From Clostridiales bacterium (GTDB lineage Bacteria > Bacillota > Clostridia > Saccharofermentanales > Saccharofermentanaceae), in assembly GCA_017428155.1 (NCBI GenBank), contig JAFRRJ010000062.1:1-64000 (forward strand): DNA of 64,000 nucleotides. The letters are read 5' to 3'. The stretch's first letter is position 1. Every line of letters begins with the position of its first letter. The notes beneath the pieces are model-generated. The model was not told the origin of the DNA and did not search any database. It saw nothing but the letters and a program-made list of their open reading frames with translations. A program made the translations under genes and the position numbers. Below are positions 53 through 22,917 of this stretch, one piece after another.

Positions 53-68
53 AACTGCAAAAATCACT

Positions 69-109
69 CAAAAAAAAGACCCCCATACCTTTGCGGTATG
101 AGGATCTTT
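69..109 (-). terminator. Second intrinsic terminator, minus strand
   Basis: A long stem (75-89 with 95-109, loop 90-94) has two A.C mismatches when read on the plus strand but G.U wobbles when read on the minus strand, and the minus strand then runs into eight or more T. It therefore works for minus-strand transcription. It lies about 90 bp beyond the terminator at 200-233 and probably acts as a back-up for the foldase gene. Confidence 0.6.
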
Positions 110-199
110 GAAAAGGATGTCTTAACTTAATGACATTGCTCTTAAGGAGGCAGCCTTTTGTTATTAAAGGAAAACACCTGCAATCATTCCGGATAATAA

Positions 200-2166: not shown

Positions 2167-4968
2167 ATGCGGGTAAAGGATAGACCGATACTGAAAGAAA
2201 AAAGCGGCACTTTGCTGGAATACTGGCCGCAGCTGCTGCTGGCTTTTTTATTCCCGACACTTACTGTTCTTGCGGCCTTTGCGGTTACGGGATGCTATCC
2301 TTTTGGAGAGCGGACGATCCTTACGGTGGATCTTTACCACCAGTATTGTCCTTTCCTTGTCGCATTCAGGGACAAGGTCTTATCAGGGCAGTCTCTTTTC
2401 TACAGCTGGAATGACGGCCTCGGGCAGGAATACTATGCCGCATATGCCAATTATGCAGCAAGTCCTTTGAATATCTTTGCTTTGCTTTTCGATGCAAAGA
2501 CAATGCCTGTGTTTATCGCACTCGTATCCTGCCTCCGTGCAGGTCTTGCATCTGTTTTTATGCTTCTTTTCCTCTCTGCCAATGACAATAAGAGAATGGA
2601 CAATATTACGGTAGTCTTCAGCGCATCTTATGCTCTGTGCGGATGGTTCATCTCATTCTTCTGGAACATAATGTGGTGCGATGCTGTAGTGCTGCTGCCT
2701 TTGATCATGCTGGGATTACGAAGACTGCTTCTGGAAAGAAAATGCGGTCTTTATACAGTCTGTCTTGCCATTGCGATTGTAAGCAACTACTATGCAGGAT
2801 ATTTTCTTTGCCTGTTCCTGGTGCTTTTCGCGCCTTGTTATTACATATGCCTCTTCTCAAGAGAGAAGCCCAAGGGCGATCCCGGAAGACTCTGCTTCAA
2901 GACTTTTGCAGGTTCAGCAATAAGATTTGCAGTGTCCAGCCTTCTTGCAGCCGCCGCTACTGCCGCTATTACGGTTCCGACATATCTGATACTCCGCAAC
3001 TGCTCCGCGACAGGTGATGAATTCAAGGCTGATTACGCTCTGCAGAACAACCTTTTCGACTTCCTCGGAAGATTGATGGTGGCTGCAAATCCAAATATAA
3101 GAGACGGTATGGCTAATGTATACAGCGGTCTTGTCATCGTTTTGTTGCTGCCGCTGTTCTTCCTGCTTCCGGCAAGAACCGGCATCAAGCTCAAGCATAA
3201 GATCGTATTCGGTGTTCTTACTGCGGTCATGTATCTGAGTTTTACAAACAGGACACTCAATTTCATCTGGCACGGAATGCATTTCCCGAACCAGATCCCT
3301 TACAGGGAATCATTCCTTATGAGCTTCCTTCTGGTGTTCATCGGATTCCTGACAATAAGGCGGATACGAAGCCTGGGCGCCAAATATGTCGCCGGCTCAA
3401 TATTAAGCTCGGTCTTTTTCCTGATCCTTTATGAGAAGTTCGGCACGGGCAATGAAGGATATCTTCAGATCGGTGTAACACTTCTGTTCCTCATAATCCA
3501 GGGCGCAGCTCTTTATACTGTAAGCAACATCAATTCGGGAAAGAGCGAGTTTTTTTGCGAGACACTCCTTACTGTCACCATGATGGTCGAGATGTTTGCT
3601 GCATCCCTTATCACGATCGGTCTTGTCTGCTATCACGAAGGCTTTACGCATTATGCTCCTTACGGCAGACACAAGAATGAGGTTGCAGCCTATGCGGAAG
3701 AGGTCGAGGGAACCGAAGGACATATGAACTTTGAGCGTTCCGAGCTTTTCCCGAATAACGTATGTGATCTGCAGTCACTTTATAACGTCAAGGGATTATC
3801 GATCTTCTCTTCGACTGCCAGGGAGAGCTTTATCAAATATGTAAGGAATTACGGATTCCATAACAACAATATCAACGGTCTTCGCAACGCGGGACTTACC
3901 CGTGTTACGGCGACTCTGTTTAATGTCAGGAACCTTATAGAGACGGATAAGACACAGGCCGTTCCTGATCTTTTCGAGAAGGAATACTCTGATGATACCA
4001 TTACATCATGGGGGAATCCTGATGCTCTGAGTGTCGGCTACATGACAGATCCTGCTGTTATCTCTTATGCTCCCGATTACGACAATGATATTGATGTTTT
4101 TGATAAGACCAACAAGTGGCTCGAGAGCATGGGTGCGACGTCCGCATATAAAAAGGTCAAGATGCATTCCAAGCCGTCAGCCGGCCTTACGACACAGGAC
4201 AGTTATAATGACGTCCTTGTATATAATTCCACTAATAATTCGAAGGAATTCAACATCAACTTAAGTGTTGACGAAGCAGATATCGGATCTGATATCTATA
4301 TCTATATAAATGCCAAAAAAGGCGGAAATGTCACCATTACATCGGGTGAGAATGTAAGAAAGTTCGAGATCAGAAGTTACCAGATAATCACTCTCGGTGT
4401 CTTCAACGGCGAGCCTATTGAAATCCAGATCAAGTATTCGGAGAATCCCGGCGCATCACTGTTCGTATACGGTTATCAGCTGGATCAGGACGGGTACAGG
4501 GGAATGCTCGATGCCCTGAGTGATGAGCAGCTTCAGGTGACATCTTACGATACCACCTCGCTGTCCGGACATATCGATGTTATCGAAGACGGACTTCTCT
4601 TCCTGACGATCCCATATGCTGAAGGATGGAGCGCTGAAGTAGACGGCGAGCCTTGTGAGATAGTATCTGTTCAGGATGCTTTTATGGGCCTCATGCTCGA
4701 AAAGGGAAGCCATGACATTACTATAACTTATGCTCCCGCAGGCGTCAGGGCAGGCATTCTGGTATCAGCAATCTCTGTATTTGCGATCGCTCTTATCAAC
4801 ATAATCCCGATGATCTTCATAAGAAAGAAGAAATCAGATGAACCGGCTGAAGCTGAGAACAGCGCAGAGGCACCTGCCGCGGAAGAGCCTCAAGCACCGG
4901 TAGAGGAAATAATTATTCCTGAAGAATTACTTGAGGACAACAGCAGTCCGGAGGTTACCGATGATTAG
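2167..4968 (+). CDS. yfhO: YfhO-family multispanning membrane protein
   Basis: 933 residues. The first half holds about twelve hydrophobic segments with the family's N-terminal loop (GERTILTVDLYHQYCPFL, then FYSWNDGLGQ). A large extracellular domain occupies about residues 490-850, followed by one last membrane segment and an acidic Glu/Pro/Ala tail. YfhO proteins are GT-C-like membrane proteins. The Bacillus/Listeria members are tied to sugar modification of wall or lipoteichoic acid, and the conserved early Asp fits a GT-C catalytic loop. AGAGG lies before ATG 2167. The 3' end overlaps the next YfhO-like gene by 8 nt (ATGATTAG), so the two are translationally coupled and may act as a pair. 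Family assignment is firm; the substrate is unknown. Confidence 0.8.
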   Translation: MRVKDRPILKEKSGTLLEYWPQLLLAFLFPTLTVLAAFAVTGCYPFGERTILTVDLYHQYCPFLVAFRDKVLSGQSLFYSWNDGLGQEYYAAYANYAASPLNIFALLFDAKTMPVFIALVSCLRAGLASVFMLLFLSANDNKRMDNITVVFSASYALCGWFISFFWNIMWCDAVVLLPLIMLGLRRLLLERKCGLYTVCLAIAIVSNYYAGYFLCLFLVLFAPCYYICLFSREKPKGDPGRLCFKTFAGSAIRFAVSSLLAAAATAAITVPTYLILRNCSATGDEFKADYALQNNLFDFLGRLMVAANPNIRDGMANVYSGLVIVLLLPLFFLLPARTGIKLKHKIVFGVLTAVMYLSFTNRTLNFIWHGMHFPNQIPYRESFLMSFLLVFIGFLTIRRIRSLGAKYVAGSILSSVFFLILYEKFGTGNEGYLQIGVTLLFLIIQGAALYTVSNINSGKSEFFCETLLTVTMMVEMFAASLITIGLVCYHEGFTHYAPYGRHKNEVAAYAEEVEGTEGHMNFERSELFPNNVCDLQSLYNVKGLSIFSSTARESFIKYVRNYGFHNNNINGLRNAGLTRVTATLFNVRNLIETDKTQAVPDLFEKEYSDDTITSWGNPDALSVGYMTDPAVISYAPDYDNDIDVFDKTNKWLESMGATSAYKKVKMHSKPSAGLTTQDSYNDVLVYNSTNNSKEFNINLSVDEADIGSDIYIYINAKKGGNVTITSGENVRKFEIRSYQIITLGVFNGEPIEIQIKYSENPGASLFVYGYQLDQDGYRGMLDALSDEQLQVTSYDTTSLSGHIDVIEDGLLFLTIPYAEGWSAEVDGEPCEIVSVQDAFMGLMLEKGSHDITITYAPAGVRAGILVSAISVFAIALINIIPMIFIRKKKSDEPAEAENSAEAPAAEEPQAPVEEIIIPEELLEDNSSPEVTDD

Positions 4969-7246
4969 TGTCAAGGAAAGACTTAAGCCATATCTGGGCC
5001 TCGCATTCTGCATTATCGTTTCTTCTCTTATTGCTGTTCTTGCGCTTAACACAGGTCTTCTTACGGAGCCCGAGCAGCTTTTGCCAAAGGGCATAACGAT
5101 GCGCAGTGCCGGCATGAGCGGCAATATCCTGCGCGGAATCGACCTGGCTTTAGAAGATGTTGAACTGATAAGATCCGGAACTGCATCAGGGAGCCTTTGG
5201 AGACTTCTGACATTCGTGCATCCCGATCTTTTCTTCTATCTTGCGCTTCTTATTCCCGCGGCAGCAAAAACAATACTTCTCACAGGTTACTATGTCAGAT
5301 TTGGTCTGTGCTGCGGAGCAATGTATTATTTTCTGTCAGAGCACTTAAAGCTCAGAAGGCTCCCTTCGGCAATGCTCGCTCTAATGTATGCCTTCTCTTC
5401 ACAGATCATCTTCACGGCCCAGTTCGCATCCATCATGAATATGGCTGTTATGCTGCCTGTTGTTATGTCTTCTTTTGATTCATATCTTCAGAAAAGGACA
5501 TGGAAAGCCTTTGTTCTCGCATGTGTCTCGTCTTTCGGATTATGTGCGAGCGGAGGATACGGTCTGATCACAGGTGTGCCGGGAATCATCCTCACAGGTC
5601 TTCTCATGTGTATTAGTCTGTACAGAACATTTAAGATGGCCTTCGTTTCATGGCTTAAGCTTATTGGAGCTGTTGCTGCCGGTCTTGTTATGGATATGGT
5701 CTTTGCTCTTCCGGGATTACTTGGTATGAGCACGGATATGAATATCAGTGAGAGCTTCAAGAACGCCAGAGTCACGTATACTGTTTTCGATTTTTTGAGA
5801 GGCACATACACTCTCAGATCCGGAAGCGTTTATCTTAACGGCATACCGCTTTTCTATATCGGAATACTTACGGTCGTGGCAGTTCTTGTTTTTGCTCTGA
5901 ATGACATGATCCCCGTAAGGCTCAAAGCCGCTGTAGCCGTTGTGGCAGCTGTTATTCACATAACATGCTGTTCCTCGTTTGTTAATGAGACGATCTCCGT
6001 ATTCGGCACTTCAGCTCTGCTTAATTCTTCAAAGCTAATATGCCTTGAGGCGGTTCTGTTCTTTGCTGCCGGAATCGGACTTAAGAATGCATCAGGTCTC
6101 AAAAAAGGCGATTTCATTGCCTGCGGCCTTATTCCGCTGGCCTTTCTCATCTTATCCAATAACAGTTCTGCAGGTACGACTCTTGCAAGCCCGATCCTGA
6201 TCTCAACATTTGTCACGATAATTGCAGAGGCATCGCTGGTCTATGCTATTGCCAAGGACAAGCTGTCCCGCAAGGGCAAGTATTGTGTGCTTATTGCCGC
6301 TTTCGTCCTCGTCGGCGTAAATACAGCGTTTGTCATGTTTAATAATACGATCCAGAGCCTTGCCTGTGAGGAGTATTTTAAAGGGAACAAGTCTGATAAG
6401 ACATCACAGACCCTCATTTTTGACGAGGGTTTTGAACTGCCGTCAATAAACGACAATAATTATATTGTTGTCCCGGGAGATTTGAGTCTTTACGAATCCA
6501 CCGGTACCGATATAGATGATATTAATTATTTATCTGAAAAGATTTCCGGCTCGGCACTGTTTGAAAGGCTGGACCTTGATCTGGCTGAGAAGAGGGATTT
6601 GCTCTCAGATGCTACGGACACTTACAGAATGATCGATGGCACAAATGACCTGGTATTTGAATCCTTTGCTCCGTCTCCTAATGAAAGATTATTTGCATTC
6701 TGCAGTTCGGCAAGCGGAGCTACTTTGATAATTGAGTCGTCTGAAGGCACGGCCGAAAGGCACTATACCGGGCCTTTCCTTACCGAGATAGAGAGCCACG
6801 CTGAACCGGTTGTCCTCAGATATATCATAGATTCCACCGGCGAAGCTGCATGCAGGATATCGCTGCTCAGGCTTAACCGGAATGCTTTAGACTCTATGAG
6901 ATCCGTTTCCGGAGAAATAAGTTCATCAAAATATACCGTGGAGTTCAGGGATACAAATGCTGTCGGCGGCACCGGCACAGTAATCTTCCCGTATTCATAT
7001 GACTCAGGGAACAAGATAAAGATCAACGGCTTTGAGGCTAAAACTTTCGATTTCTGCGGAAAGGCTGCCGTCATCTGCGACTTAAGCCATATGGACAGAT
7101 TCGAAGTAAGCGTTGACGGCGGCGGCAGAGGAACCGTTCAGGGTGCTCTTATCAGTGCTGCCGGCCTGCTCTGCCTTATCGCAATTCCTGTGATTCAAAG
7201 GTATAATGATAAGAAGAAAGTTACCGGCGAAGGAACCCAAAGCTAA
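4961..7246 (+). CDS. Second YfhO-like multispanning membrane protein
   Basis: About 761 residues. Its plan matches the gene before it: many membrane segments in the first 480 residues, then an extracellular domain of about 230 residues and a final membrane segment (GALISAAGLLCLIAIPVIQR). The stretch SGSLWRLLTFVHPDLFFYL recalls the YfhO region where a membrane loop meets the substrate site. The early residues are less like canonical YfhO than those of its neighbour. ATG 4961 is chosen over an upstream ATG at 4931 because GGAGG sits just before it and the upstream start lies deep inside the previous gene. The stop overlaps the next gene by one base (TAATG). It is probably a diverged duplicate acting in envelope glycosylation with its neighbour; this is inference. 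Confidence 0.65.
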   Translation: MISVKERLKPYLGLAFCIIVSSLIAVLALNTGLLTEPEQLLPKGITMRSAGMSGNILRGIDLALEDVELIRSGTASGSLWRLLTFVHPDLFFYLALLIPAAAKTILLTGYYVRFGLCCGAMYYFLSEHLKLRRLPSAMLALMYAFSSQIIFTAQFASIMNMAVMLPVVMSSFDSYLQKRTWKAFVLACVSSFGLCASGGYGLITGVPGIILTGLLMCISLYRTFKMAFVSWLKLIGAVAAGLVMDMVFALPGLLGMSTDMNISESFKNARVTYTVFDFLRGTYTLRSGSVYLNGIPLFYIGILTVVAVLVFALNDMIPVRLKAAVAVVAAVIHITCCSSFVNETISVFGTSALLNSSKLICLEAVLFFAAGIGLKNASGLKKGDFIACGLIPLAFLILSNNSSAGTTLASPILISTFVTIIAEASLVYAIAKDKLSRKGKYCVLIAAFVLVGVNTAFVMFNNTIQSLACEEYFKGNKSDKTSQTLIFDEGFELPSINDNNYIVVPGDLSLYESTGTDIDDINYLSEKISGSALFERLDLDLAEKRDLLSDATDTYRMIDGTNDLVFESFAPSPNERLFAFCSSASGATLIIESSEGTAERHYTGPFLTEIESHAEPVVLRYIIDSTGEAACRISLLRLNRNALDSMRSVSGEISSSKYTVEFRDTNAVGGTGTVIFPYSYDSGNKIKINGFEAKTFDFCGKAAVICDLSHMDRFEVSVDGGGRGTVQGALISAAGLLCLIAIPVIQRYNDKKKVTGEGTQS

Positions 7247-8294: not shown

Positions 8295-8323
8295 TTGAAA
8301 TTTCAGTTGGGATGACATAAAAT
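8295..8323 (+). promoter_or_regulatory. Sigma-A promoter of the PilX-like gene
   Basis: TTGAAA (8295-8300), 17 bp, TAAAAT (8318-8323). Transcription from about 8330 would give an 85-nt leader before ATG 8415. I looked in the leader for a c-di-GMP riboswitch core and found no match. Confidence 0.65.
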
Positions 8324-8414: not shown

Positions 8415-10847
8415 ATGATTAAAAGAATTTGTAAGACAAAGCAGAGCAAGCACGGCGCGATACTTGTTGTCGTCGTACTGATCCTGGCACTCGCAATGAT
8501 CTTCATTGCATCCGCCATGATGCTTACCCAGTCTACAAGAACACGTCTGTATGAGCGTACGATGCAGAGTCAGGCAAGACTTACAGTAACTGCTGCTTCA
8601 GAAGTTTTCCTTGAAGCTCTCCAGACACAGGAGATCACTGATGATCAGATCGACGCTTTGCTTGGGGCGTCTCATGAGAAGCATGATAATAACAAGGATA
8701 AGATGAAGATGGTTGTTGACGGTGTCCCCGGAATGTCAACTGCTGATGATAACTGCACATATCTTGATCTTTATTATAAAGAAGACGCGACTGATACAGT
8801 ATGTGCGGATTTTACGACCGTTATCGGTGATGAGATCGAGAACGTTCAGGTTGTTCTTGTTATACAGGAGCCTGACGGCGAGACATTCGAGATCTTTAAC
8901 AACCAGATCGATATCGGCGGAAGCGTAAGCAACAACAATCTGCGTTTTACGCAGGGTGTCGGAATGTTCAATAAAGACGTAACACCTGCAAACAACAATA
9001 TCGTTATCAGAGGTAATTCGGCTAACCAGACAAACGACTCAATTTTCTTCTCTAATGTTATTTATACCGGAAAAGTATATTCCTTCTGGGGTGGTAAGGG
9101 ATACTTTATGGGAGACATTATTTTCAAGGATGACTCCTATTTAACAACAAAGGACAGCGGTCCGGTCATCAAGGGAGATATCTTCTTCTTCTCCAACTCC
9201 AGCAACGGCGCTTTCAGATTCCATCAGGAAGGCGGATGGGATTCCATCCAGAATTCCACTTCTACAAGAATCGTTATTAATGACGGTCGAGCTCCTCAGG
9301 GTCCTGATTGTACTCAGTCTGTTGCGGTTGACCAATGGTCATCATATAACCCGGGAAAAGATCAGAATGAGAAGATCAAAAACCTGCTTGCAAGCAAATC
9401 CGTATATTTTGTTGACAACAAAAATAAGACAGTAAGTGCTACGAATGTAAAGGGAACATATCAGGTTAAAAATTCTGCAGTAGATCAGGCTAGTGGCACA
9501 TATAAAGGTCTCCCGGATGATCTTGCATCAAAGAATACAAAGTATAAGAACTCGAAGATCAGTTCTTTCCCTCAGTCCTGCGATGAAGTATTCGTAACGA
9601 TCAACCCGATTACTAACAATGCAAATAAGGGAATAAAGACAGTATCAAAAAGCTTATCAAAGTTTACCCGTACTGAATATGAGGCGGTTACTGACGCAGC
9701 AGGCAATGTAACATACAAAGTACATCCCAAGGGTTCTGATGTTGGTGAAGAGGATGTTAAGGTATATGAGTTTCCGTTAACGACAAAATTCCCTGATAAA
9801 AATTATTTTATCGATGGTAATGGAAAGGCCCCTGATGCTGCAGGAGGGGCTGCGTATACAGCAAAGTATTACGAACTATATGATAAGAACGGCAATCTCA
9901 GAGCCGATCATAAGATTACTTTGACCAAGTCCGGATTCGATGCAATTGACGGTAAGACTATCGCTGTCAGCAATACAAACGCCGGAACTGTTAATACAAA
10001 AGTTGATAAAGACGGTAAAGCTAATGGCGTAATTGATCTTAAGCCCGGCTGGTATCAGTTCTCTCCCGGAACTCTGGATAATAATACAACGCCTTATATC
10101 ATTGCCATAGACGGATCCAGGGCTGATGAATACCGTTTGTATTTTTCTAAAGGCACTTATTGGTTTAAGTCTCTTATAATCGCTGTCTATAATGTTACAG
10201 ATGCAAAGAGTGTCTTTTGTATTTTGGAACCTGGAACAAGTATATCGTTGTCATGCTGCAACAACAGAGACTGCGGCAAAGCCCTCTGTATAGCCGGATT
10301 CCTTTCAGTAAAACGTGATGAGTGCGGAACCGCATCTGCGCTTGCACAGTATATCAAAGGCGGCTGCAATGGACGTATGGGCGGTCACCTCACCGGCGGT
10401 TCTGACGGTGAATGCCAGTCCTGGGAGAGGCCTGACGGTACGAATTACAAATATTATAAAGATGGCGCTGTAAAGGGTGATATCAAGTATTCTAAGTACT
10501 ATGACAGTATAAGAAAGCCCTCGATGTTCATCTTCGGTCAGGGTATTGATTTCAGAGCAAACAGCGGTGCTGTCCTGGAAGCATACTGTGGTTTCTATAA
10601 GAACGGAGACACCAAGTCAGTATTCGGAGGAACAGAAGGTCACCTTGACGGCAGTTTCCCTTGCTACATCTACGGAAGAGTAGAGTGCGATAAATTCGAC
10701 TGCGGTAACTCTCAGGAATGCTACTGTATGCCTTATTGCCCGCAGCCCGGCGGATCAACGACTCAGGATCCTCAGAGAAGAGCTGTTACAAAATATAAAG
10801 TATCTAATATTATCTACTACTATAAGAAGGAAGCTCCGGGATCTTAA
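8415..10847 (+). CDS. Large pilus-associated protein: PilX-like N-terminus, cysteine-rich C-terminus
   Basis: 810 residues. Residues 1-60 carry a basic leader, KHGAILVVVVLILALAMIF and a long amphipathic helix, the plan of PilX/PilV-type minor pilins (positive leader, Gly-Ala, hydrophobic helix, no Glu at +5). The rest is a large Asn/Thr/Gly-rich, beta-looking region. The last 200 residues hold about 15 cysteines, including SCCNNRDCG and ECYCMPYCP, suggesting a disulphide- or metal-stabilised domain. It could be a tip adhesin or minor pilin carried by the pilus encoded 3.3 kb downstream. It has its own promoter and a perfect terminator. ATG 8415 is preferred over GTG 8406 because AGGAAGG would overlap the GTG. 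The non-pilin part is not assignable by eye. Confidence 0.6.
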   Translation: MIKRICKTKQSKHGAILVVVVLILALAMIFIASAMMLTQSTRTRLYERTMQSQARLTVTAASEVFLEALQTQEITDDQIDALLGASHEKHDNNKDKMKMVVDGVPGMSTADDNCTYLDLYYKEDATDTVCADFTTVIGDEIENVQVVLVIQEPDGETFEIFNNQIDIGGSVSNNNLRFTQGVGMFNKDVTPANNNIVIRGNSANQTNDSIFFSNVIYTGKVYSFWGGKGYFMGDIIFKDDSYLTTKDSGPVIKGDIFFFSNSSNGAFRFHQEGGWDSIQNSTSTRIVINDGRAPQGPDCTQSVAVDQWSSYNPGKDQNEKIKNLLASKSVYFVDNKNKTVSATNVKGTYQVKNSAVDQASGTYKGLPDDLASKNTKYKNSKISSFPQSCDEVFVTINPITNNANKGIKTVSKSLSKFTRTEYEAVTDAAGNVTYKVHPKGSDVGEEDVKVYEFPLTTKFPDKNYFIDGNGKAPDAAGGAAYTAKYYELYDKNGNLRADHKITLTKSGFDAIDGKTIAVSNTNAGTVNTKVDKDGKANGVIDLKPGWYQFSPGTLDNNTTPYIIAIDGSRADEYRLYFSKGTYWFKSLIIAVYNVTDAKSVFCILEPGTSISLSCCNNRDCGKALCIAGFLSVKRDECGTASALAQYIKGGCNGRMGGHLTGGSDGECQSWERPDGTNYKYYKDGAVKGDIKYSKYYDSIRKPSMFIFGQGIDFRANSGAVLEAYCGFYKNGDTKSVFGGTEGHLDGSFPCYIYGRVECDKFDCGNSQECYCMPYCPQPGGSTTQDPQRRAVTKYKVSNIIYYYKKEAPGS

Positions 10848-10864
10848 TCTGATAATCAAAATCA

Positions 10865-10900
10865 ATTAACAAGGCTGCTCAAATGAGCAGCCTTGTTAAT
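10865..10900. terminator. Bidirectional terminator between convergent genes
   Basis: A perfect 16-bp inverted repeat (10865-10880 with 10885-10900, loop AAAT) sits between the PilX-like gene and the minus-strand DsrE-like gene. The outer stem is A/T-rich on both sides, so it can serve both transcripts. Confidence 0.85.
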
Positions 10901-10921
10901 TTCGTAAGTCAGCAAAAAGAA

Positions 10922-11368
10922 TTATTCCAGAACTAATATCCCGGGAAGATAGATTAGTTCCTCAGATATGGACAACATGGATCTTATGGTGATCTTCGGA
11001 TTATCCTTTACGTTTACTTTATAAAGATCAATACTATCCTTATCGGCGATAATGAGTTCTGATCTGTTGATCAGCGCAAGCATATCCTCATACAGAGGAC
11101 ATGCTTCATCGAGAAGCTTTGTTCCCATATCTGCCAGATAGATAATAATATTCTCATATGAAGCATCACATAAAACAGACAGAAAATCCTTAAGCATTTC
11201 ACGTCCGTGATCAGAATCAGAAGAATAATAGTCATGTTTTATAAGTATATATTTTGAAGAGTCAGCCTCATCTGTTTTTTGCGGAAGCACTTCGAGAATA
11301 GTGTTATCTTCAAACTGTTCGAGCTGAGGTTTTGAATATTCAAGACTGTTTTTTTGCTTGCTGTTCAT
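10922..11368 (-). CDS. DsrE-like small protein (YedF C-terminal type)
   Basis: 148 residues. After a polar N-terminus of about 38 residues comes a DsrE/YedF-like core: YILIKHDYY, HGREMLKDFLSVLC, then IIIYLADMGTKLLDEACPL. YedF-type proteins carry a CGTC-like motif at the end of a strand; here the position reads IIADKDSIDLY with no cysteine, so sulfur transfer by that route is unlikely. ATG 11368 has GGGAGGG upstream; the longer reading to 11485 has no such site and would overlap the next gene heavily. The chosen start still overlaps the DUF6062 gene by 29 nt. It is last in the yebC operon. Family assignment is tentative. Confidence 0.5.
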   Translation of the reverse strand: MNSKQKNSLEYSKPQLEQFEDNTILEVLPQKTDEADSSKYILIKHDYYSSDSDHGREMLKDFLSVLCDASYENIIIYLADMGTKLLDEACPLYEDMLALINRSELIIADKDSIDLYKVNVKDNPKITIRSMLSISEELIYLPGILVLE

Positions 11369-12101
11369 CAAAATCCCTCCCGTCTGAAGATAAGAAACGC
11401 ATTGAACGCTGAATGGCATTCTTGCTGGTTCCCCATGGTTTATCTGTATTTCTGTAGTCGAACTTAAGCGTAAAGTACTCGACATCAGCTATCAGCGATT
11501 CAAAAGTCTTGGAATTATTAGCATACAATGCCTCTACAAAATCAGAAGCTTCATTCTGCGATAGCTTGGAAGCCTGCCTCAGAAGCATGGCTGTATGGGG
11601 CAGGCAATGGAATTCTGAATTTGTGAATTTCTCCTTAAAATCCTTATCGTGAGAAAACATCCAGCAGATGACTTCAATATAATGCCCCATAGCATCGTTA
11701 AGATTCTCACATATAGGGCATAAACCGATTCTTTTCTCTATAAGGTCAGCCACACTGTTAAGCTTTTGTCTGTAGTCAGTGGTTCTTCCCTTGAGAAGTC
11801 CGGCTTTGGCGGGAATGCTTGATTTGAGTTTGGGATTAAGATCTTCATTAAAGTCTTTCAGATGAGTATGCATTACAAGACCAAGTCCAAGCCTGTTGGT
11901 AACGGCCTTGTTGAGTTTTCCCATATGAACAGGACAAAAGCCTGTCTTGTTGGTAATCTTTCTTGTATCGGGCTCCATCAGTGAAGGTCCCAGATAGTAT
12001 TCCAGATAATTATTTTCCGCCTTGTCACGAAGCCTGCAGACCGGGCATCCGCCTTCTTCGTTATAAGCATCATTAACAGGTATCATATATATCTTTTCCA
12101 T
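11340..12101 (-). CDS. DUF6062-type protein with two CPxC/CxxH modules
   Basis: 253 residues. Two similar cysteine/histidine pairs stand out: GGCPVCRLRD with GFCPVHMGKL, and LCPICENLND with FHCLPHTAML. Each looks like a zinc-binding knuckle, with helices between. This pattern fits the DUF6062 family of Clostridia, whose function is not known to me. ATG 12101 shares its A with the TGA of the upstream ATPase gene (TGATG), a coupling signal, and GGGAGGA lies just before it. Within the operon it may work with the P-loop/Asp23-like protein. Confidence 0.65.
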   Translation of the reverse strand: MEKIYMIPVNDAYNEEGGCPVCRLRDKAENNYLEYYLGPSLMEPDTRKITNKTGFCPVHMGKLNKAVTNRLGLGLVMHTHLKDFNEDLNPKLKSSIPAKAGLLKGRTTDYRQKLNSVADLIEKRIGLCPICENLNDAMGHYIEVICWMFSHDKDFKEKFTNSEFHCLPHTAMLLRQASKLSQNEASDFVEALYANNSKTFESLIADVEYFTLKFDYRNTDKPWGTSKNAIQRSMRFLSSDGRDFDEQQAKKQS

Positions 12102-14103: not shown

Positions 14104-14192
14104 TCTAACATCTATGCTTGGGCAAAGTGTGCCTGTCTGTTTGGTGTGCATTTCTGAGCGTATATTTTATAGACGATTATCGGGAGGGTTCG

Positions 14193-15857
14193 ATGAAGAG
14201 ATTAGGTGATATTCTTGTTGAGAGCGGCTTCCTAAATGCTACCGAATTGGCAGAAGTGCTCAGCACTCAGAAGGAAACCGGAAAGCGCCTTGGAGAAGTT
14301 ATCGTTGAAAGTGGTCTGATGTCTGAATTTGACATCTTAAGAGCCGTTTCAAGCCAGTATAATTATCCTATTATTGATCTGGCTGGTATTGACGTAGACC
14401 CTAAGGCCACATCACTGCTTACACAGAAATTCTGCGAAGAAAATGTCGTATTCCCGATTGGTTTTGATAATGACAATCTCGTAGTTGCTATCGATGACCC
14501 GATGAATATTACGATCGAGGATGAGCTGCAGTTCCAGACCGGATACCAGATATCCCTGATGCTTGCTACCCACTCTTCGATCATTGATGCTATTAAAGTT
14601 AATTACGGTAAGGAAAGTGCTGTCAAGGCTGCCGAAGAACTCGGAACGAGTATGGAGAGCGAGAGTCTTGACGATAACAATGAACTTTCCGAAGCAGTTA
14701 ACAGTGCCCCGGTTGTAAAGCTTGTTAACTCAATGATCGATTATGCGATCCGTTCAGGTTCATCAGATATTCATATCGAACCTCTTGAAGACCGCGTAAG
14801 AGTCCGTATCCGTATTGACGGTGTCATGCAGGAAGTCATGAGTAACCCGATTTCCGCAAAAGACGCCATTACCACCAGAATCAAGATCCTCGGCGGAATG
14901 AACATCGCCGAGAAGCGTATTCCTCAGGACGGCCGTATCACAACGGTGATCAATGGCGAGGATGTGGACATGCGTGTATCTGTCCTTCCCTGCGTTACCG
15001 GTGAGAAGACAGTTATCCGTATCCTTGCAAAGAACGATGCTAACCTCAACAGAAAGTATCTTGGTATCAGCGACCGTAATAACGAGATGATCGACAAGAT
15101 GATCAAGATACCGCAGGGAATCGTTCTTATCTCCGGTCCTACAGGATCAGGTAAGACAACCACACTTTATACACTACTTTCAGAAAAGAATACCGACGAA
15201 GTTAATATCATCACAGTAGAGGACCCTGTAGAAATCAGGATCCCCGGACTTAATCAGGTTCAGGTTAACTCCAAAGCCGGAATGACATTCGCAAGCGGAT
15301 TGAGATCCATCCTGCGTCAGGACCCTGATATCGTCCTCGTCGGTGAGATCCGTGACGGTGAGACAGCAGAGATCGCTATGAGAGCCGCTATCACCGGACA
15401 CCTCGTATTCAGTACAATCCATACCAATGATGCGGTATCTTCTATCAACCGTCTCATCGATATGGGTCTTGAGCCTTACATGGTATCGTCAGCTCTTGTA
15501 GGCGTTGTATCCCAGCGTCTTGTCCGCCGCATCTGCACTAACTGCAGAGAGTCTTATGAGCCTGATGATTTTGAGAGAGAATACTTAAGGCTTGACGCAG
15601 GTCAGAAGCTGTACCGCGGCAAGGGCTGCCAGGACTGCAATGAGAAGGGCTATAAGGGACGTATTGCTATCCATGAGATCGTAATCATGACAAGAAAAAT
15701 GAAGAGTTTGCTCGAGAGAAGAGCAAGTGAAGATGAGATGCGTCAGCTCGCAATCACTGAAGGCACACAGATGCTTCAGGATTCTGCCCGTGATCTCGTA
15801 CTCGAAGGAATTACGACGATCGGCGAGCTCAACAGAGTAGCTTACACGATTGACTGA
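14193..15857 (+). CDS. pilB: Type IV pilus assembly ATPase PilB with tandem MshEN c-di-GMP motifs
   Basis: 554 residues. PilB powers pilin polymerisation at the inner face of the membrane. Residues 3-26 (RLGDILVESGFLNATE...) and 32-55 (RLGEVIVESGLMSEFD...) are two near-perfect 24-residue MshEN motifs, each running RLG...L...Q, the type shown to bind c-di-GMP in MshE-class ATPases. The ATPase core has Walker A GPTGSGKTTT near residue 315, Asp box, Walker B (DPDIVLVGEIRDGE) and His box, and the usual zinc site CTNC...CQDC near residue 450. ATG 14193 is chosen because GGGAGGG lies 4 nt upstream; the longer reading from 14118 has no such site. It starts the pil operon and is followed 17 nt later by pilT. 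Confidence 0.93.
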   Translation: MKRLGDILVESGFLNATELAEVLSTQKETGKRLGEVIVESGLMSEFDILRAVSSQYNYPIIDLAGIDVDPKATSLLTQKFCEENVVFPIGFDNDNLVVAIDDPMNITIEDELQFQTGYQISLMLATHSSIIDAIKVNYGKESAVKAAEELGTSMESESLDDNNELSEAVNSAPVVKLVNSMIDYAIRSGSSDIHIEPLEDRVRVRIRIDGVMQEVMSNPISAKDAITTRIKILGGMNIAEKRIPQDGRITTVINGEDVDMRVSVLPCVTGEKTVIRILAKNDANLNRKYLGISDRNNEMIDKMIKIPQGIVLISGPTGSGKTTTLYTLLSEKNTDEVNIITVEDPVEIRIPGLNQVQVNSKAGMTFASGLRSILRQDPDIVLVGEIRDGETAEIAMRAAITGHLVFSTIHTNDAVSSINRLIDMGLEPYMVSSALVGVVSQRLVRRICTNCRESYEPDDFEREYLRLDAGQKLYRGKGCQDCNEKGYKGRIAIHEIVIMTRKMKSLLERRASEDEMRQLAITEGTQMLQDSARDLVLEGITTIGELNRVAYTID

Positions 15858-15874
15858 TAAGGAGGTTTTTTAAC

Positions 15875-16987
15875 GTGGAAGGATTTAGTTTATCGATCGA
15901 ATCGATTTTGGCTGAATCGGTTAAGATGGGGGCATCCGATACCCATATTACAGTAGGATTGCCGCCTATGATTCGTGTTGACGGTATGTTGATGCCGTTA
16001 GGCAATCAGCCGCTTACAGCTGCAGATACTGAGTATCTTTGTAAGTCAATGATTGACAAATCAAGACAGCAGTATCTGAACGAGAGAGGTGAGATCGACT
16101 TCTCTTACATTGTTGAGAACTTCAGCCGTTTCAGATGTAATGTGTTCAAGCAGCGCGGAACTTATGCACTTGCAGCCAGAACAATTACAAATGAGATCCC
16201 TACATGTGAACAGCTTGGTCTTCCTAACGTATTCAAGGATCTCGTTATGAAGCCCCGTGGACTTATCCTTGTTACCGGTCCTACGGGTTCAGGTAAGTCT
16301 ACAACTCTTGCCGCAATGATCGGACACGTAAATATGAGTAAGAAGTGTCATATCCTTACTCTTGAGGAACCTATCGAGTATCTCCATATGCACGGAGAGG
16401 CTATGATCAACCAGAGAGAGATTCACGAGGATACACTTTCATTTGCTAATGCACTCAGAGCTGCTCTCCGTGAAGACCCGGATATCATCCTCGTCGGAGA
16501 GATGCGTGACCTTGATACTATCAGTACCGCCATTACCGCAGCCGAGACGGGACACCTCGTTCTTTCAACACTCCACACGTCTTCAGCTGCTGATACAGTC
16601 AACCGTATTATCGACGTTTACCCGCCTCATCAGCAGGATCAGATCAGAGTACAGCTTGCTACCTGTCTTGTTGCAGTTATCTGTCAGACACTTGTACAGA
16701 GAATAGGCGGAGGCAGATGTGCCGCATTTGAGATCATGATCTCAAATGACGCTATCAGGAACAATATCCGTGAAGGTAAGACATATCAGATCGACTCCAC
16801 GATCGCTACCAGCCTTCAGTCGGGAATGTGTCCTCTTGATTTCTATCTTGCAGAACTCGTTAAGCGTAATATGATCACAAGAGATACTGCTCTCCAGAGG
16901 AGCAGAAACCCTGAAGATCTTAAGCGTTTCATCAATAATGCAGGTCAGACGAACAGCCCGCTGTTCGGTGATCTTGAGTTCGCCTGA
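15875..16987 (+). CDS. pilT: Type IV pilus retraction ATPase PilT
   Basis: 370 residues. PilT drives pilus disassembly, allowing twitching, adhesion under tension and DNA uptake. It has the N-terminal PAS-like region (MGASDTHITVGLPP), Walker A GPTGSGKSTTLA, Walker B DPDIILVGEMRD, and the C-terminal AIRNNIREGKTYQI, close to the AIRNLIRE signature that marks retraction ATPases. The start is GTG 15875 with GGAGG 9 nt upstream. Presence of PilT implies dynamic pili rather than a pure secretion system. Both ATPases are in one transcript, so extension and retraction enzymes are made together. Confidence 0.93.
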   Translation: MEGFSLSIESILAESVKMGASDTHITVGLPPMIRVDGMLMPLGNQPLTAADTEYLCKSMIDKSRQQYLNERGEIDFSYIVENFSRFRCNVFKQRGTYALAARTITNEIPTCEQLGLPNVFKDLVMKPRGLILVTGPTGSGKSTTLAAMIGHVNMSKKCHILTLEEPIEYLHMHGEAMINQREIHEDTLSFANALRAALREDPDIILVGEMRDLDTISTAITAAETGHLVLSTLHTSSAADTVNRIIDVYPPHQQDQIRVQLATCLVAVICQTLVQRIGGGRCAAFEIMISNDAIRNNIREGKTYQIDSTIATSLQSGMCPLDFYLAELVKRNMITRDTALQRSRNPEDLKRFINNAGQTNSPLFGDLEFA

Positions 16988-17090
16988 TTACAGGGCGCTT
17001 AGAGAGTTTAACCCGTCAGACAGCTCTGGTGAGTAAAGAACTCAAATAAAGCAATTAAGTTTAGTAATCAAAGAAGGAGGGAAATATTAG

Positions 17091-18299
17091 ATGGCTAATT
17101 TCAGATATCAGGTTATCGATTCGAACGGTAAAATGTCTGAAGGCATCATCGAAGCAGCAACCATCGGAGAAGCATCAAGAAAGCTCAAAGGCGATGGTAA
17201 ATACATTGCATCCTTGTCTTTGGACAAGGGTAAGGGTATTGCCAATATGGAGATCGGCAGCCCAAAACTCAAGACACAGGATCTCGTTCTTATCTCCAGA
17301 CAGCTGGCTTCACTTTTGTCTGCAGGTATTACCGTAGTCAGATCGCTCGATATGCTTTATCAGCAGCTTGAATCTAAAAAGGCAAAGAAGTGTATCGGAG
17401 AGATATACGAATCAGTTCAGAGTGGTCGTTCTCTTTCCGAGGCATTTAAGGAACAGAGGGGTGTTATCCCTAATATCATGATCAGTATGATCGCTGCAGG
17501 TGAGGAATCCGGCCGACTCGACGAAGTTATGGAAAGACTTGCTGAACACTTTGCGAAGGATGCAAAGCTCAAGAACAAGATCTCCTCGGCAATGGTTTAT
17601 CCTAAGATCCTCGCTGCACTTACAGCAGCAGTCAGTATCGGTCTCTTGACATTCCTCGTACCTAAGATCGGTGATACGATCAAGGATCTCGGAGGTGAAT
17701 TGCCTAAATTGACGCAGTTCCTTCTTGACTTCTCAGATTCAATCGTTCACTACTGGTACATTTATATTGCAGTTATCGGTCTTATTGTATATGGTTTTAA
17801 GCTCTGGAAGAGTTCCGAGAAAGGTGCTGAGACATGGTCTAAGATGATGCTCAAGATGCCTGTCGTCGGAAAATCCACCAGAATGAACGCTTCAGCAAGA
17901 TTTACCAGAACAGTATCCACACTCCTTAAGTCAGGTATTTCCGTACTTCAGGCAGTTGAGATTACCGAGAAGTCGCTTGATAATGTTATTCTTCAGAAAA
18001 AACTTTCCCAGGCACGTATCGAGATCAGAAAGGGTACATCTCTTTCAAGATCAATCAGAGATATTACCGAGTTCCCTCCCATGATCTATGCAATGGTTTC
18101 TATCGGTGAGGAATCAGGTACCCTGGACACGATTTTGCAGAAGGCCGCTGATTACTTTGAAGATGAGGCTGATGCCGCTACAGCAAAGATGGTTTCCGCT
18201 TTGGAGCCTGTCATGATCATCATCATGGCTATCATCGTCGGAACTGTTGTAGGCGGTATCGCAATGCCTATCTTCACGATGGCTCAGTGGATCATGTAA
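17091..18299 (+). CDS. pilC: Type IV pilus inner-membrane platform protein PilC
   Basis: 402 residues. PilC is the polytopic platform that couples the ATPases to pilin. Two copies of the GspF domain are visible, each with LASLLSAGITVVRSL or TLLKSGISVLQAVE type starts and ending in membrane segments; the G-E-E-S-G signature occurs twice (AAGEESGRLDEV and SIGEESGTLDTI). The last segment is strongly hydrophobic. A soluble N-terminal domain of about 55 residues (YQVIDSNGKMSEGIIEA) precedes them. A 103-nt gap from pilT holds a GGAGGG site but no terminator that I can see. Confidence 0.93.
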   Translation: MANFRYQVIDSNGKMSEGIIEAATIGEASRKLKGDGKYIASLSLDKGKGIANMEIGSPKLKTQDLVLISRQLASLLSAGITVVRSLDMLYQQLESKKAKKCIGEIYESVQSGRSLSEAFKEQRGVIPNIMISMIAAGEESGRLDEVMERLAEHFAKDAKLKNKISSAMVYPKILAALTAAVSIGLLTFLVPKIGDTIKDLGGELPKLTQFLLDFSDSIVHYWYIYIAVIGLIVYGFKLWKSSEKGAETWSKMMLKMPVVGKSTRMNASARFTRTVSTLLKSGISVLQAVEITEKSLDNVILQKKLSQARIEIRKGTSLSRSIRDITEFPPMIYAMVSIGEESGTLDTILQKAADYFEDEADAATAKMVSALEPVMIIIMAIIVGTVVGGIAMPIFTMAQWIM

Positions 18300-18328
18300 T
18301 CCCCGAATAGATTGAAAGGAGTATATAA

Positions 18329-19441
18329 ATGGATTTAGCATTAGGAAGAGGCTCAAACGAACTGGTAATCGATTGCTCCAGCTCAGACCTTAAAGTTGCT
18401 GTCGGGAATTACAATCCCAAGACAGGAAATATAACAATCGAGAAGATGGGCATAGTTCCGTTGGAAGGCGATGCCATTAACGACGGTACTGTTGCAGATT
18501 CCTTCGGAATCGTTATGGCTCTTAAGCACGCCATCGCAAGACTCGATATCAGAATGAAGAGCTGCATACTTACTACAGAAGGTGCTTTTGTTCACAGCAG
18601 AGACCTTGAACTTCCTGTAGTTAAAGATGATCAGCTTAAGGATATGGTTAAGTACGAGATCCTCGGACAGGGTTCCAACAGAGATATGTCAATCGATTAT
18701 CTCGTATACGGTACGACTAAGGATGCAGAGACAAATGCAGATAAGCTTAAGGTAAGAGCTACTGCTATCCCTACAGAAGTTATCAAGGATTACCGTGAAT
18801 TCTTAAAGAACATGGATCTCAATCCTGTTGCTCTTGATGTTAACCCCAATGCAGTAAGAAAGCTTTTCGAGCAGGGCATCATCAATGGTAACGTTAATAT
18901 CAAGCAGTCCACGATCCTTCTGATTGAACTTTCAAGCAAAACAACAACCGTTACGGTTCTTGATAAGGGATTCCCGGTTCTTTCAAGAAGACTCCAGTTC
19001 GGTCACAGCAACATCAGACAGGTTGCTGATTCTGTCAAGAAGCTTCAGAGCGGAAACCAGCAGTCATCTCTCGCAAGAAGACTTAACATTACCACTTCCG
19101 AAGCAGAAGCCAGTGTTCCGATCGAGGATATCGACGTTTGGAATGAGACGGTTGCAGAGACACCCGCACTCCAGAGTGCTGTTAATGCATACTTCAAGAG
19201 TCTCGTTGATGCAGTTTCCCGTACGGCACAGTTCTCAATTGCCAAGTATCACATTGATGCTATCAGCACATGTTTCCTTTATGGATCTGGTGCAGGTTAT
19301 AAGAAGATAGACAAAGAACTTGCGCGTCAGCTTGGAACACAGGTCGAGATCCTTAAGTCACTCAGCACAGTAAGCGGTCCTAGGGACTTCGAGCTCGGTC
19401 AGTTCATCAATTGTTGTGGCGCTTTGATTCGTCACGATTAA
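18329..19441 (+). CDS. pilM: Type IV pilus assembly protein PilM
   Basis: 370 residues. PilM is an actin-like cytoplasmic ATPase that binds the N-terminal tail of PilN and links the platform to the motor. The actin/FtsA fold is seen in LVIDCSSSDLKVAVGNYN (phosphate loop 1), in LLIELSSKTTTVTVLDKG (phosphate loop 2) and in CFLYGSGAGYKKID (adenosine region). GGAG lies before ATG 18329. It sits in the usual order M-N-O. The N-terminal motif reads D-C-S-S-S rather than D-x-G-x-S, so nucleotide binding may differ a little from the type proteins. Confidence 0.88.
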   Translation: MDLALGRGSNELVIDCSSSDLKVAVGNYNPKTGNITIEKMGIVPLEGDAINDGTVADSFGIVMALKHAIARLDIRMKSCILTTEGAFVHSRDLELPVVKDDQLKDMVKYEILGQGSNRDMSIDYLVYGTTKDAETNADKLKVRATAIPTEVIKDYREFLKNMDLNPVALDVNPNAVRKLFEQGIINGNVNIKQSTILLIELSSKTTTVTVLDKGFPVLSRRLQFGHSNIRQVADSVKKLQSGNQQSSLARRLNITTSEAEASVPIEDIDVWNETVAETPALQSAVNAYFKSLVDAVSRTAQFSIAKYHIDAISTCFLYGSGAGYKKIDKELARQLGTQVEILKSLSTVSGPRDFELGQFINCCGALIRHD

Positions 19442-19456
19442 GGAGGGGTTAACTAT

Positions 19457-20401
19457 ATGGCTAAGGCTAGCGGAATTAACAAAAAGTTATTGGCAAAGAA
19501 AGATATGAACTTCTTTGCCGAGTTTACAGCCAACGCAGCGAAACAGGCAAGATTGTTAGGCTATGGCGTTGTTATCGGTGTCCTTGTAGTATTTGTAGTC
19601 CTCGCGTTCATCGTTGCATTCTTTATCAGAAACTCAATCATTAAGGGCCAGATCAACGAACTGAATGAGCTCCTCTCAGGACCCGAGTATGCTACTCTTG
19701 AGCAGGATTCTGAGGCACTCAAAGCTCAGCTCAATGACAGAACAAATTACTATTATGCTCTTACACAGATGAGAAGAGATGTTGATGAGATCGATCCTGC
19801 CCCTGTTGAGCTTCCTGACATCATTGAGAAGTGTATCCCCAGCGATTCGTTCATCTCCAACTATTCGATCACAAATTCCATGGTGACAATGGACGGCTAT
19901 TCATTCACATATTACAGCCCCGTTGATATGGTAAATATGTTGAATGCGAAGAATGTCTTCACAGCAAGACCTACGATCACAATAGACAGATATGAACCTG
20001 ATACACAGCAGCTTACGATCGATGAGATCATTGCGGGAGCATCAGTCAATGCTATTAACAACTACTATAAGTTCTCTATTTCCGGAACACTGGTAGCAAA
20101 CGTTCATATTGCTATTACACGTTATACAGACGGTGAATCTGATACTTCTTCTCTTGGCGGAATTGAGACAATTACCGTTAAGGCAGGCGACCAGTATGAG
20201 ATCGATGGTGTTGCTCAGTATGAATATGCAGGTACAAGCTATAACCTGACGAGCATCTATGTAAACGGTGTACAGGTTGAGGAAGCAAGTTTCAACATGA
20301 TCGTAGCCAACAACAAGTATGTTGATATCGGCCGCGGCAACTACGACATCAGGTTCTACTACACACCTGTCGGCGCTGAAGCACCTGCTGAAGAAGGCTA
20401 A
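19457..20401 (+). CDS. pilN: PilN-like pilus alignment protein with extended C-terminus
   Basis: 314 residues, longer than the 180-210 usual for PilN. A cytoplasmic N-terminus (about residues 1-30) leads to a single membrane segment (VVIGVLVVFVVLAFIVAFFI), then a coiled-coil and a ferredoxin-like domain containing DIIEKCIPSDSFISN and VDMVNMLNAKNVF. The extra C-terminal 110 residues (DGESDTSSLGGIETITVK to the end) look like a small beta domain outside the membrane. Assignment rests on position between pilM and pilO plus topology. GGAGG precedes ATG 19457. Confidence 0.75.
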   Translation: MAKASGINKKLLAKKDMNFFAEFTANAAKQARLLGYGVVIGVLVVFVVLAFIVAFFIRNSIIKGQINELNELLSGPEYATLEQDSEALKAQLNDRTNYYYALTQMRRDVDEIDPAPVELPDIIEKCIPSDSFISNYSITNSMVTMDGYSFTYYSPVDMVNMLNAKNVFTARPTITIDRYEPDTQQLTIDEIIAGASVNAINNYYKFSISGTLVANVHIAITRYTDGESDTSSLGGIETITVKAGDQYEIDGVAQYEYAGTSYNLTSIYVNGVQVEEASFNMIVANNKYVDIGRGNYDIRFYYTPVGAEAPAEEG

Positions 20402-20422
20402 GTGTAAGGGAGGATATATAAT

Positions 20423-21418
20423 ATGAGTAATCTTACAGCTAGAGAAAAAGCCTTTATGTATGCGATCACATTGCTGATCATTATCGTATTGGGCTATTTC
20501 TTCGGAATCAGAACACTTAATAATAAGTATGATGATTATAGAGAAGAATTACAGACATTACAGGAAAAGAAAGAATTCCTTGACCAGCTTCGTGAGAACA
20601 ATGTAAGCATGGACAAGGAGATCCAGGTGCTCGAAGCATCATGCAAGGAACTGGAGTTATCCTTCATCGACAAGCTTGAGACAGAGTGCCTTCAGCAGTA
20701 TGTATTAAAGACATTTGAAGAAGAAGGCTGCCCCTTCCTTATCAACATCAACTCTGCTGATGTTGGAATGTCATCTGTAACCTATCCTGACGGAACAACT
20801 TCACCTGACGGACTTGTTTGTATGCAGATCGGTGTATCTTATTCAACAACAGACGGATACACAGTTACACAGTATAACCGTACTCCGGACTTTACAGAGG
20901 GTGCGCAGATTCCTGCGGAAGAGACTATCGCCGAACTGGCAACCCAGATGGGTCAGGGAGATTATGCCAAGAGAACTGGCTATCATGAATTCCTTTCAGC
21001 TCTTAAGAAGATTGCCAACGAGAATCCTTCCTGCATCAAGGTAACAAGCATCACTGCTACAGAGGAAGTCGGTATCATGACAGTCAGTGCTACTATCAAT
21101 TTCTATGGAACAAGTCTTAGAAACAGATTGTCCGTTGACGACAGCACAAAGCCTTATACAAGCTGGACTGGACATAGGGGCGTTGATACAAAGGGCGGAT
21201 TTATCGGATTCCCTTATATCTGCGATTATAAGGACAGCTTGTGGTATGGTTGCGTAACAATGAACCTCAAGGAAGGCTCACAGGTTAAGAGACCGTTCGC
21301 AGCATACTGGGCTAACGTACTGTTCGATGCACAGCTCGAAGCAGCAGGCGGAGATATCAAGGTTCTGTTGAACTTTGAGGGTGAAGAAGCACCCGCAGAG
21401 ACGCAGCCTGCGACATAA
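20423..21418 (+). CDS. pilO: PilO-like pilus alignment protein
   Basis: 331 residues, again longer than usual. A short N-terminus, one membrane segment (FMYAITLLIIIVLGYFFGIR) and a coiled-coil (about residues 30-70) are followed by an extracellular domain of about 250 residues. In diderms PilN and PilO form heterodimers linking PilM to PilP/PilQ; a monoderm has no PilQ, and the larger outer domains here may reach through the wall instead. Assignment depends mostly on context. The tail is Ala/Pro/Glu-rich, like that of the PilN-like protein. Confidence 0.7.
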   Translation: MSNLTAREKAFMYAITLLIIIVLGYFFGIRTLNNKYDDYREELQTLQEKKEFLDQLRENNVSMDKEIQVLEASCKELELSFIDKLETECLQQYVLKTFEEEGCPFLININSADVGMSSVTYPDGTTSPDGLVCMQIGVSYSTTDGYTVTQYNRTPDFTEGAQIPAEETIAELATQMGQGDYAKRTGYHEFLSALKKIANENPSCIKVTSITATEEVGIMTVSATINFYGTSLRNRLSVDDSTKPYTSWTGHRGVDTKGGFIGFPYICDYKDSLWYGCVTMNLKEGSQVKRPFAAYWANVLFDAQLEAAGGDIKVLLNFEGEEAPAETQPAT

Positions 21419-21530: not shown

Positions 21531-21743
21531 ATGAAGAAGATTCAGAAGTCAAAGAAGGGTTTCACCCTCGTAGAAATGGTACTCGTTATTGCTATCATCG
21601 TTATCCTCGCAGCAGTTCTCGTTCTTGGTATCGGTGCATACCTCAACAAGGCTAAGGCAGCTGCAAGCTCCGTTGGTAAGCACAACAGTGACGTTTCTGC
21701 AGTTAACAGCGAAGTTAACGCATTCATGGGTTGGACAGACTAA
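21531..21743 (+). CDS. Very short type IV prepilin, probable major pilin
   Basis: 70 residues. A basic leader (MKKIQKSKKG) precedes the class III cleavage site G|FTLVE with Glu at +5, then the usual hydrophobic helix (MVLVIAIIVILAAVLVLGIG). The mature protein is only 60 residues and has almost no globular head; it ends NAFMGWTD. Usual major pilins have 130-170 residues. Geobacter PilA is similarly short (about 61). Four aromatic residues are present in the mature chain (F1, Y27, F55, W58). The dedicated near-consensus promoter, strong AGGAGG site and tight terminator suggest high expression and hence the main subunit. It could instead be a minor pseudopilin, but its regulation argues against that. 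Confidence 0.8.
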   Translation: MKKIQKSKKGFTLVEMVLVIAIIVILAAVLVLGIGAYLNKAKAAASSVGKHNSDVSAVNSEVNAFMGWTD

Positions 21744-21860: not shown

Positions 21861-21888
21861 TTGAAATTTGCACAGAAGTCGGTATAAT
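21861..21888 (+). promoter_or_regulatory. Sigma-A promoter of the second prepilin cluster
   Basis: TTGAAA (21861-21866), 16 bp, TATAAT (21883-21888). It serves the second short pilin and probably the two longer prepilins after it, as no terminator separates them. Confidence 0.7.
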
Positions 21889-21932: not shown

Positions 21933-22163
21933 ATGCACAGGATAACTAAATTTAAGAATTCTAAGTGTGGTTTTACACTTACCGAGATGGTAATTATCAT
22001 CGGAATTATCGTAATACTTGCCAGTGCAGTCGGTGCCGGTATTGCTGACACTCTTAAGAATGCGAAGAAATCAAAGAAGGCTGTTGAAGACTCCTGTGCA
22101 CAGCTCAAGCAGCGCATTGATGAGAGCGAGTCTATATTGAATAAGTATAATTTTGGCACTTAA
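21933..22163 (+). CDS. Second short type IV prepilin-like protein
   Basis: 76 residues. The leader MHRITKFKNSKCG ends in a G|FTLTE cleavage site with Glu at +5, followed by MVIIIGIIVILASAVGAG. The mature part (63 residues) is a single long helix with a charged, coiled-coil-like tail (KKSKKAVEDSCAQLKQRI) and one cysteine. It differs from the first pilin in having a richly charged C-terminal half. GGAGG lies before ATG 21933. It may be an alternative or minor pilin at the pilus base or tip. Confidence 0.7.
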   Translation: MHRITKFKNSKCGFTLTEMVIIIGIIVILASAVGAGIADTLKNAKKSKKAVEDSCAQLKQRIDESESILNKYNFGT

Positions 22164-22188
22164 TGACCAGTTCCGGGAGAGTGATTTT

Positions 22189-22866: not shown

Positions 22867-22917
22867 TCCGATTTTAATCACAGAGACTAACGTCACTAGT
22901 ACGGGGGCACGGTTTTT

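Follow-up and report, generated by a model that had tools for sequence, protein, structure and literature searches.

A role in attachment to cellulose has been proposed for the type IV pili (T4P) of anaerobic rumen bacteria, but for Clostridia it is mostly unknown which part contacts the substrate. A locus in the genome of a Clostridiales bacterium offers a candidate. In the 64,000-nucleotide stretch analysed here (GenBank assembly GCA_017428155.1, contig JAFRRJ010000062.1, positions 1 to 64,000; hereafter the window), a complete T4P operon is accompanied by a presumed shaft pilin of only ~60 mature residues. An 810-residue protein with a pilin-like start, which we call the giant, is encoded 3.34 kb from pilB, confirming the 3.3 kb spacing given in an earlier note on this DNA. 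What would a pilus of this kind do with so large a pilin? From sequence comparisons we consider it likely that the giant is a K-type (GspK/PilX/ComZ-like) minor pilin at the tip of the adjacent T4P, most likely binding a surface.

A pilin-type N-terminus beside the pilus genes

The open reading frame drawn in the earlier note is real. Counted from its ATG the gene has 810 codons and is preceded by GGAAGG as the ribosome-binding site; translation might instead start at an in-frame GTG that lies 9 nt before the ATG. The ratio of nonsynonymous to synonymous substitution rates (dN/dS) is 0.14 for the close relatives G023 and G058, and 0.29 when the window is compared with G042, its nearest relative. 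The gene is therefore constrained, under purifying selection, and these gene-wide values gave no sign of positive selection.

The giant begins with a class III signal peptide: a short basic leader ends in Gly and is followed by ~24 hydrophobic residues, with cleavage predicted between MIKRICKTKQSKHG and AILVVVVLILALAMIFIASAMML. The Gly at this site, G14, is invariant among the aligned homologues, and mature residue 5 is V, I, F, M or T, never Glu, in the homologues listed. The K subunit lacks Glu5 and caps the pilus tip complex (PMC9934059). Because an invariant G14 precedes the hydrophobic helix and Glu5 is absent, we assign the giant to the K subunits, which makes it probably a tip-type pilin. 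GspK is its best NCBIfam match (E 6.6e-4, N-terminal part only) and the top match, a weak one, in all 25 aligned homologues (best E 1.6e-4); in the whole genome, no gene other than the giant matched the GspK model in its N-terminal part. When a profile of residues 1–85 was compared with PilX_N/DUF7305 proteins of other Clostridia, hhalign gave a probability of 82 (E 1e-5). The minor-pilin-type N-terminal helix proposed earlier thus holds, and is of the GspK/PilX type. One prepilin peptidase match was found in the genome.

The gene also keeps its place. The order retained in relatives is YfhO, YfhO-like, exonuclease, giant, four reversed genes, pilB-T-C-M-N-O, short pilin, minor pilins; exceptions occur at the ends of contigs or fetched stretches and at small divergent genes without a match. 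The position of the giant next to the T4P operon held in every one of the 19 relatives whose region was fetched; a 20th region stopped just past the giant gene. Its neighbours are T4P machinery and additional minor pilins, and it forms a transcription unit of its own. The earlier note had named missing co-occurrence with the short pilin as grounds for refutation. When this test was run the idea was not refuted, the giant being found beside the short pilin in relatives, and the co-occurrence is not independent evidence because the family occurs in a single genus only.

A further tie to the minor pilins comes from the promoters. Conserved elements GTTAACAAA ... GTTAGCAAA precede that of the giant. 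Promoter-like matches in the window genome alone are at chance level (8 found, 8.0 expected); the extended signature TTGAAATTT-N12-15-TAWAAT occurs at exactly two sites in the 2.96-Mb genome, before the giant and, 13 kb away, before the minor-pilin operon, where it is retained, with some variants, in relatives. Since the signature occurs just at those two sites, we read the giant and the minor pilins as being under shared control. The gene had been credited with a promoter and a terminator of its own. The promoter is conserved in 26 genomes; the hairpin downstream is probably a terminator shared by the two convergent genes. On the + strand the hairpin has a weak T tail, and the terminator scan called it only on the – strand. 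No credible Rfam match was found in the leader of the giant gene, and no riboswitch.

Divergence, fold and cysteines of the ectodomain

The giant proteins share a mean pairwise identity of 0.38, compared with 0.83–0.93 for PilB, PilT, PilC and PilM. By part it is 0.67 in residues 1–85, 0.37 in residues 86–300, 0.23 in residues 301–535, where there are many length changes, and 0.36 in residues 536–810, a C-terminal domain that ends YCPxP...KYxVxxIIYYY. Such fast divergence of the ectodomain would be compatible with a surface role and is no proof of one. Swapping of modules between strains was not seen; the giant diverges in step with its conserved neighbours (rho 0.82).

No sequence match to the ectodomain was found in Pfam, NCBIfam or PDB. 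DUF7305 (PF23981) has no Pfam match in the giant family, and as an identity for the ectodomain it was rejected by hhalign comparison with 25 clostridial PilX_N/DUF7305 proteins (probability at most 2%). A Senescence-domain Pfam match below the cut-off (E 0.007), in one of 25 members, was dismissed as chance. For residues 176–400, AlphaFold2 returned a low-confidence model (predicted local distance difference test, pLDDT, 51; predicted template modelling score, pTM, 0.60) with no Foldseek match below E 0.96. A second fold comparison of the same residues had a best Z of 5.1 and listed both solenoids and proteins with leucine-rich repeats; it is not used as fold evidence.

The C-terminal end is rich in cysteine. 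The giant has 20 Cys, 14 of them in the last 200 residues, where the earlier note had counted about 15, and 15 in the last 220. At a Cys frequency of 1.4%, that of 18 other proteins of the locus, the chance of at least 15 in 220 residues is ~1e-6. The enrichment is a real compositional feature of the window's giant and is not shared by its relatives, which have 9 (nearest relative) or 1–8 (others) in the same domain. Among 29 homologues the widely kept positions are C775 in the YCPxP motif (28/29), C114 (27/29) and C625 (20/29), so that just C775 and C625 are widely conserved at the C-terminus. Disulfide pairing was sought in the co-occurrence of cysteines; the cases were too few to infer any.

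A putative tip pilin and the alternatives

How might such a protein act? The genome's prepilin peptidase would remove the leader after G14. The giant would then join the three minor pilins of the 21933–23580 operon in the membrane as their K subunit, and we propose these three as its H, I and J partners. Because without Glu5 another pilin is unlikely to be stacked above it, the giant would assemble first, help to start the filament and remain at the tip. The fibre would thereby present a module of ~700 residues at its end. Its presumed main subunit has little beyond the N-terminal helix, and the shortness of that subunit makes the module the obvious candidate for surface contact. It would most likely bind a surface, for example plant fibre, mucus or another cell. 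As T4P have been linked to cellulose in rumen bacteria (PMC3672088), plant fibre is a fair guess for the first ligand to consider. Of the tip adhesin suggested earlier, the tip protein is borne out by the K/PilX N-terminus without Glu5, the linkage to the T4P and short pilin, the promoter signature and the diverging ectodomain; the adhesive function we infer by analogy.

The analogies differ in how far they reach. With the GspK/PilX K subunit of the HIJK tip complex, the giant shares the type of N-terminal helix, the lack of Glu5, and minor pilins and T4P machinery nearby, but its ectodomain is severalfold larger, with an unrelated sequence, and its gene lies outside the minor-pilin operon. 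Thermus thermophilus ComZ is likewise a large GspK-like pilin without Glu5 and with an extra module. That module is a DNA-binding beta-solenoid, argued to force the tip position, and ComZ is a proposed DNA receptor at the tip (PMC6561018); the beta-solenoid and DNA binding are features of ComZ, to which the giant has no detectable sequence similarity. In the monoderm Streptococcus sanguinis, the minor pilins PilB and PilC carry large extra modules and are modular pilins, predicted at the tip and shown to be adhesive (PMC8179133, PMC9934059). In these proteins the modules are of the vWA and lectin types, and Glu5 is present in PilC; the giant lacks Glu5, and its module is not a recognised one. 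A modular pilin has been defined as a pilin module plus an extra functional module that is not T4P-specific (Raynaud et al. 2021, PMC8179133); the giant has the large extra region, without a recognisable domain. PilX_N-DUF7305 proteins of other Clostridia (PF14341, PF23981) have a related N-terminus by profile comparison, but the giant's ectodomain has no profile similarity to DUF7305. Since some PilX_N proteins in other families of the class have open frames of 780–880 aa, the giant's size alone is unremarkable. The PilY1/PilC tip adhesins of diderm T4P have the role proposed here, that of a large effector at the pilus tip, but PilY1 is not a pilin, unlike the pilin-type giant, and is reported absent from monoderms (PMC9934059).

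Could a K-type tip pilin serve DNA uptake, as in Thermus, and not adhesion? The giant resembles ComZ in the type of its N-terminus, in lacking Glu5 and in carrying a large additional module; ComZ itself is a DNA-binding protein for which a tip position has been argued (PMC6561018), and the minor pilins weakly match the ComGD/E/F models. However, the locus encodes PilT and its operon is of pil and not comG type, a ComGG-type match occurs in just one member of the giant family, and the giant matches no PDB sequence, ComZ included, which leaves this explanation unlikely. We also think it improbable that the giant mainly nucleates and caps the filament, with a large module that is structural and without specific binding. 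The module has no recognised binding domain, which would agree with this, but ~700 extra residues are unneeded for a cap alone, and a purely structural part is not expected to diverge about that fast.

The weak family scores would also suit an ordinary single-pass surface protein whose anchor resembles a pilin by chance and which has no tie to the pilus, and the genome's own vWA protein (see below) has a pilin-like stalk without the prepilin cleavage motif. This is made very improbable by the N-terminal GspK match in all 25 homologues, the invariant G14, the constant T4P linkage and a promoter signature shared with the minor-pilin operon alone. The earlier note's alternative, a cysteine-based metal- or cofactor-binding tip, draws on the cysteine enrichment described above and fares worst. 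Most Cys positions are peculiar to the window protein, homologues at the same locus have 1–9 Cys in the domain, and just C114, C625 and C775 are widely kept where a conserved set of ligand cysteines would be expected; nor was CxxCH or any other recognised motif seen in the giant sequence. These data do not support a metal or cofactor site throughout the family, and such a site seems scarcely credible as the giant's function. Lineage-specific disulfides would be the likelier use of the cysteines.

Several observations weigh against the giant being a surface-binding tip pilin. It scores 19.3 bits against the curated GspK (NF037980) cut-off of 130, and Pfam PilX_N (PF14341) has no match in the giant, its 25 homologues or the whole genome. 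The gene is transcribed separately from the minor-pilin operon, and the promoter pattern was derived from the same two sites that it matches, its informative part being that there is no third. PilN, PilO and a YfhO-like neighbour likewise diverge fast, so fast divergence is not adhesin-specific. AlphaFold2, given the full giant with two sequences as input, reached a pLDDT of 35 and was unusable. A wider picture, in which T4P throughout the genus have headless shaft subunits and have moved their binding specificity to a giant, hypervariable K-type tip of undescribed fold, with a lineage-gained cysteine cluster (disulfide-stapled or metal-binding), is possible but rather doubtful.

Tip pilins are already known; what is new is an unrecognised family of K-type modules that accompanies a short-pilin T4P within a single genus. 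Surveys that rely on the standard N-methylation motif can miss K-type modular pilins that lack Glu5. As a single gene, always beside the pilus and with a module matched by no library, the giant is a testable candidate for substrate contact.

Distribution, neighbouring genes and related proteins

Of 58 other genomes of the genus, 56 contain a homologue of the giant, and the two without a match are 79–80% complete. A class-wide profile search (391 genomes, 222 genera) matched the giant in 11/11 genomes of its own genus and in 0/380 class genomes of other genera. Because one genus of 222 was matched, the giant is, at the sensitivity of this search, a genus-level family of gut/rumen Clostridia. 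A homologous locus is also present in a metagenome-assembled genome from sheep omasum (Clostridiales bacterium); no giant homologue was found in the viral contigs searched. Some relatives have two copies, at G021:C114:46618-49177 (apparently tandem), G004:C75 and G041:C28; in G004 and G041 the count may reflect assembly contamination.

Table 1 Features of the giant gene and the pilus locus in the window
Feature	Position	Strand	Basis or remark
Putative K-type minor pilin gene (giant)	8415-10847	+	810 aa; open reading frame and homologue alignment
N-terminal pilin-type segment, residues 1-85	8415-8669	+	G14 cleavage site, no Glu5, GspK/PilX_N-like
Residues 1-14			Leader
Residues 15-38			Hydrophobic helix
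Residues about 60-170			Conserved segment
Residues 176-300			Moderate conservation
Residues 301-535			Hypervariable, numerous indels
Residues 536-810	10020-10844	+	C-terminal domain, moderate conservation, 15 Cys
Giant promoter	8295-8323	+	TTGAAA-17-TAAAAT, TTGAAATTT-N14-TAAAAT; conserved in 26 genomes
Hairpin, 17-bp stem	10864-10901	.	Between convergent giant gene and 10922 (-)
T4P machinery	14190-21418	+	PilB, PilT, PilC, PilM, PilN- and PilO-position proteins; model matches, synteny
Short pilin	21531-21743	+	70-aa precursor, ~60 aa mature; PF07963 above cut-off; presumed shaft subunit
Second genomic match to giant promoter signature	21861-21888	+	Before minor-pilin operon, 13 kb away
Minor-pilin operon	21933-23580	+	76-aa (21933-22163), 225-aa (22189) and 220-aa (22918) pilins; PF07963 above cut-off in all three

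Within the pilus operon, PilB (14190–15857, +) carries an N-terminal MshE-type cyclic di-GMP-binding motif (NF053729, E 3e-16), so pilus extension may be under cyclic di-GMP control. The PilN- and PilO-position proteins (19457–21418, +; 314 and 331 aa) have a mean identity of 0.53 and matched no NCBIfam T4P model. The short pilin at 21531 is short in all genus members seen, and its synonymous sites are strongly conserved (synonymous divergence, dS, of 0.06–0.09 versus 0.2–2.3 in neighbouring genes). A second short pilin, 69% identical to it, lies in an 85-aa frame at G000:C40:58894-59094 (L079:5874-6131), far from the T4P operon, and no giant was found beside it.

Two consecutive YfhO-family membrane proteins (PF09586) at 2167–7246 (+) always precede the exonuclease and the giant; that the pair glycosylates pili or wall is conceivable. 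Convergent with the giant, a 151-aa orphan at 10922–11377 (–) has no Pfam match and 53% identity to its nearest relative, and diverges about as fast as the giant.

Elsewhere in the genome, a YfbK-type vWA protein (G000:C52:37035-38657, L077:5036-6661; also L081:4076-5758) has a membrane helix at its start and then a near copy of the short-pilin tail (YLNKAKAASGSVGKHSPDVAAVNSEVNAFMGWDD), without a prepilin cleavage motif. It is 60% identical to the short pilin over ~58 residues. A vWA protein with this pilin-like start is also found in G042, and those of most other relatives match only further in; it is possibly a pilus-mimicking or pilus-associated surface protein. A 3200-aa frame at G000:C59:14032-14346 has DUF7305-like (ice-binding-like adhesive) matches and is possibly a separate giant adhesin.
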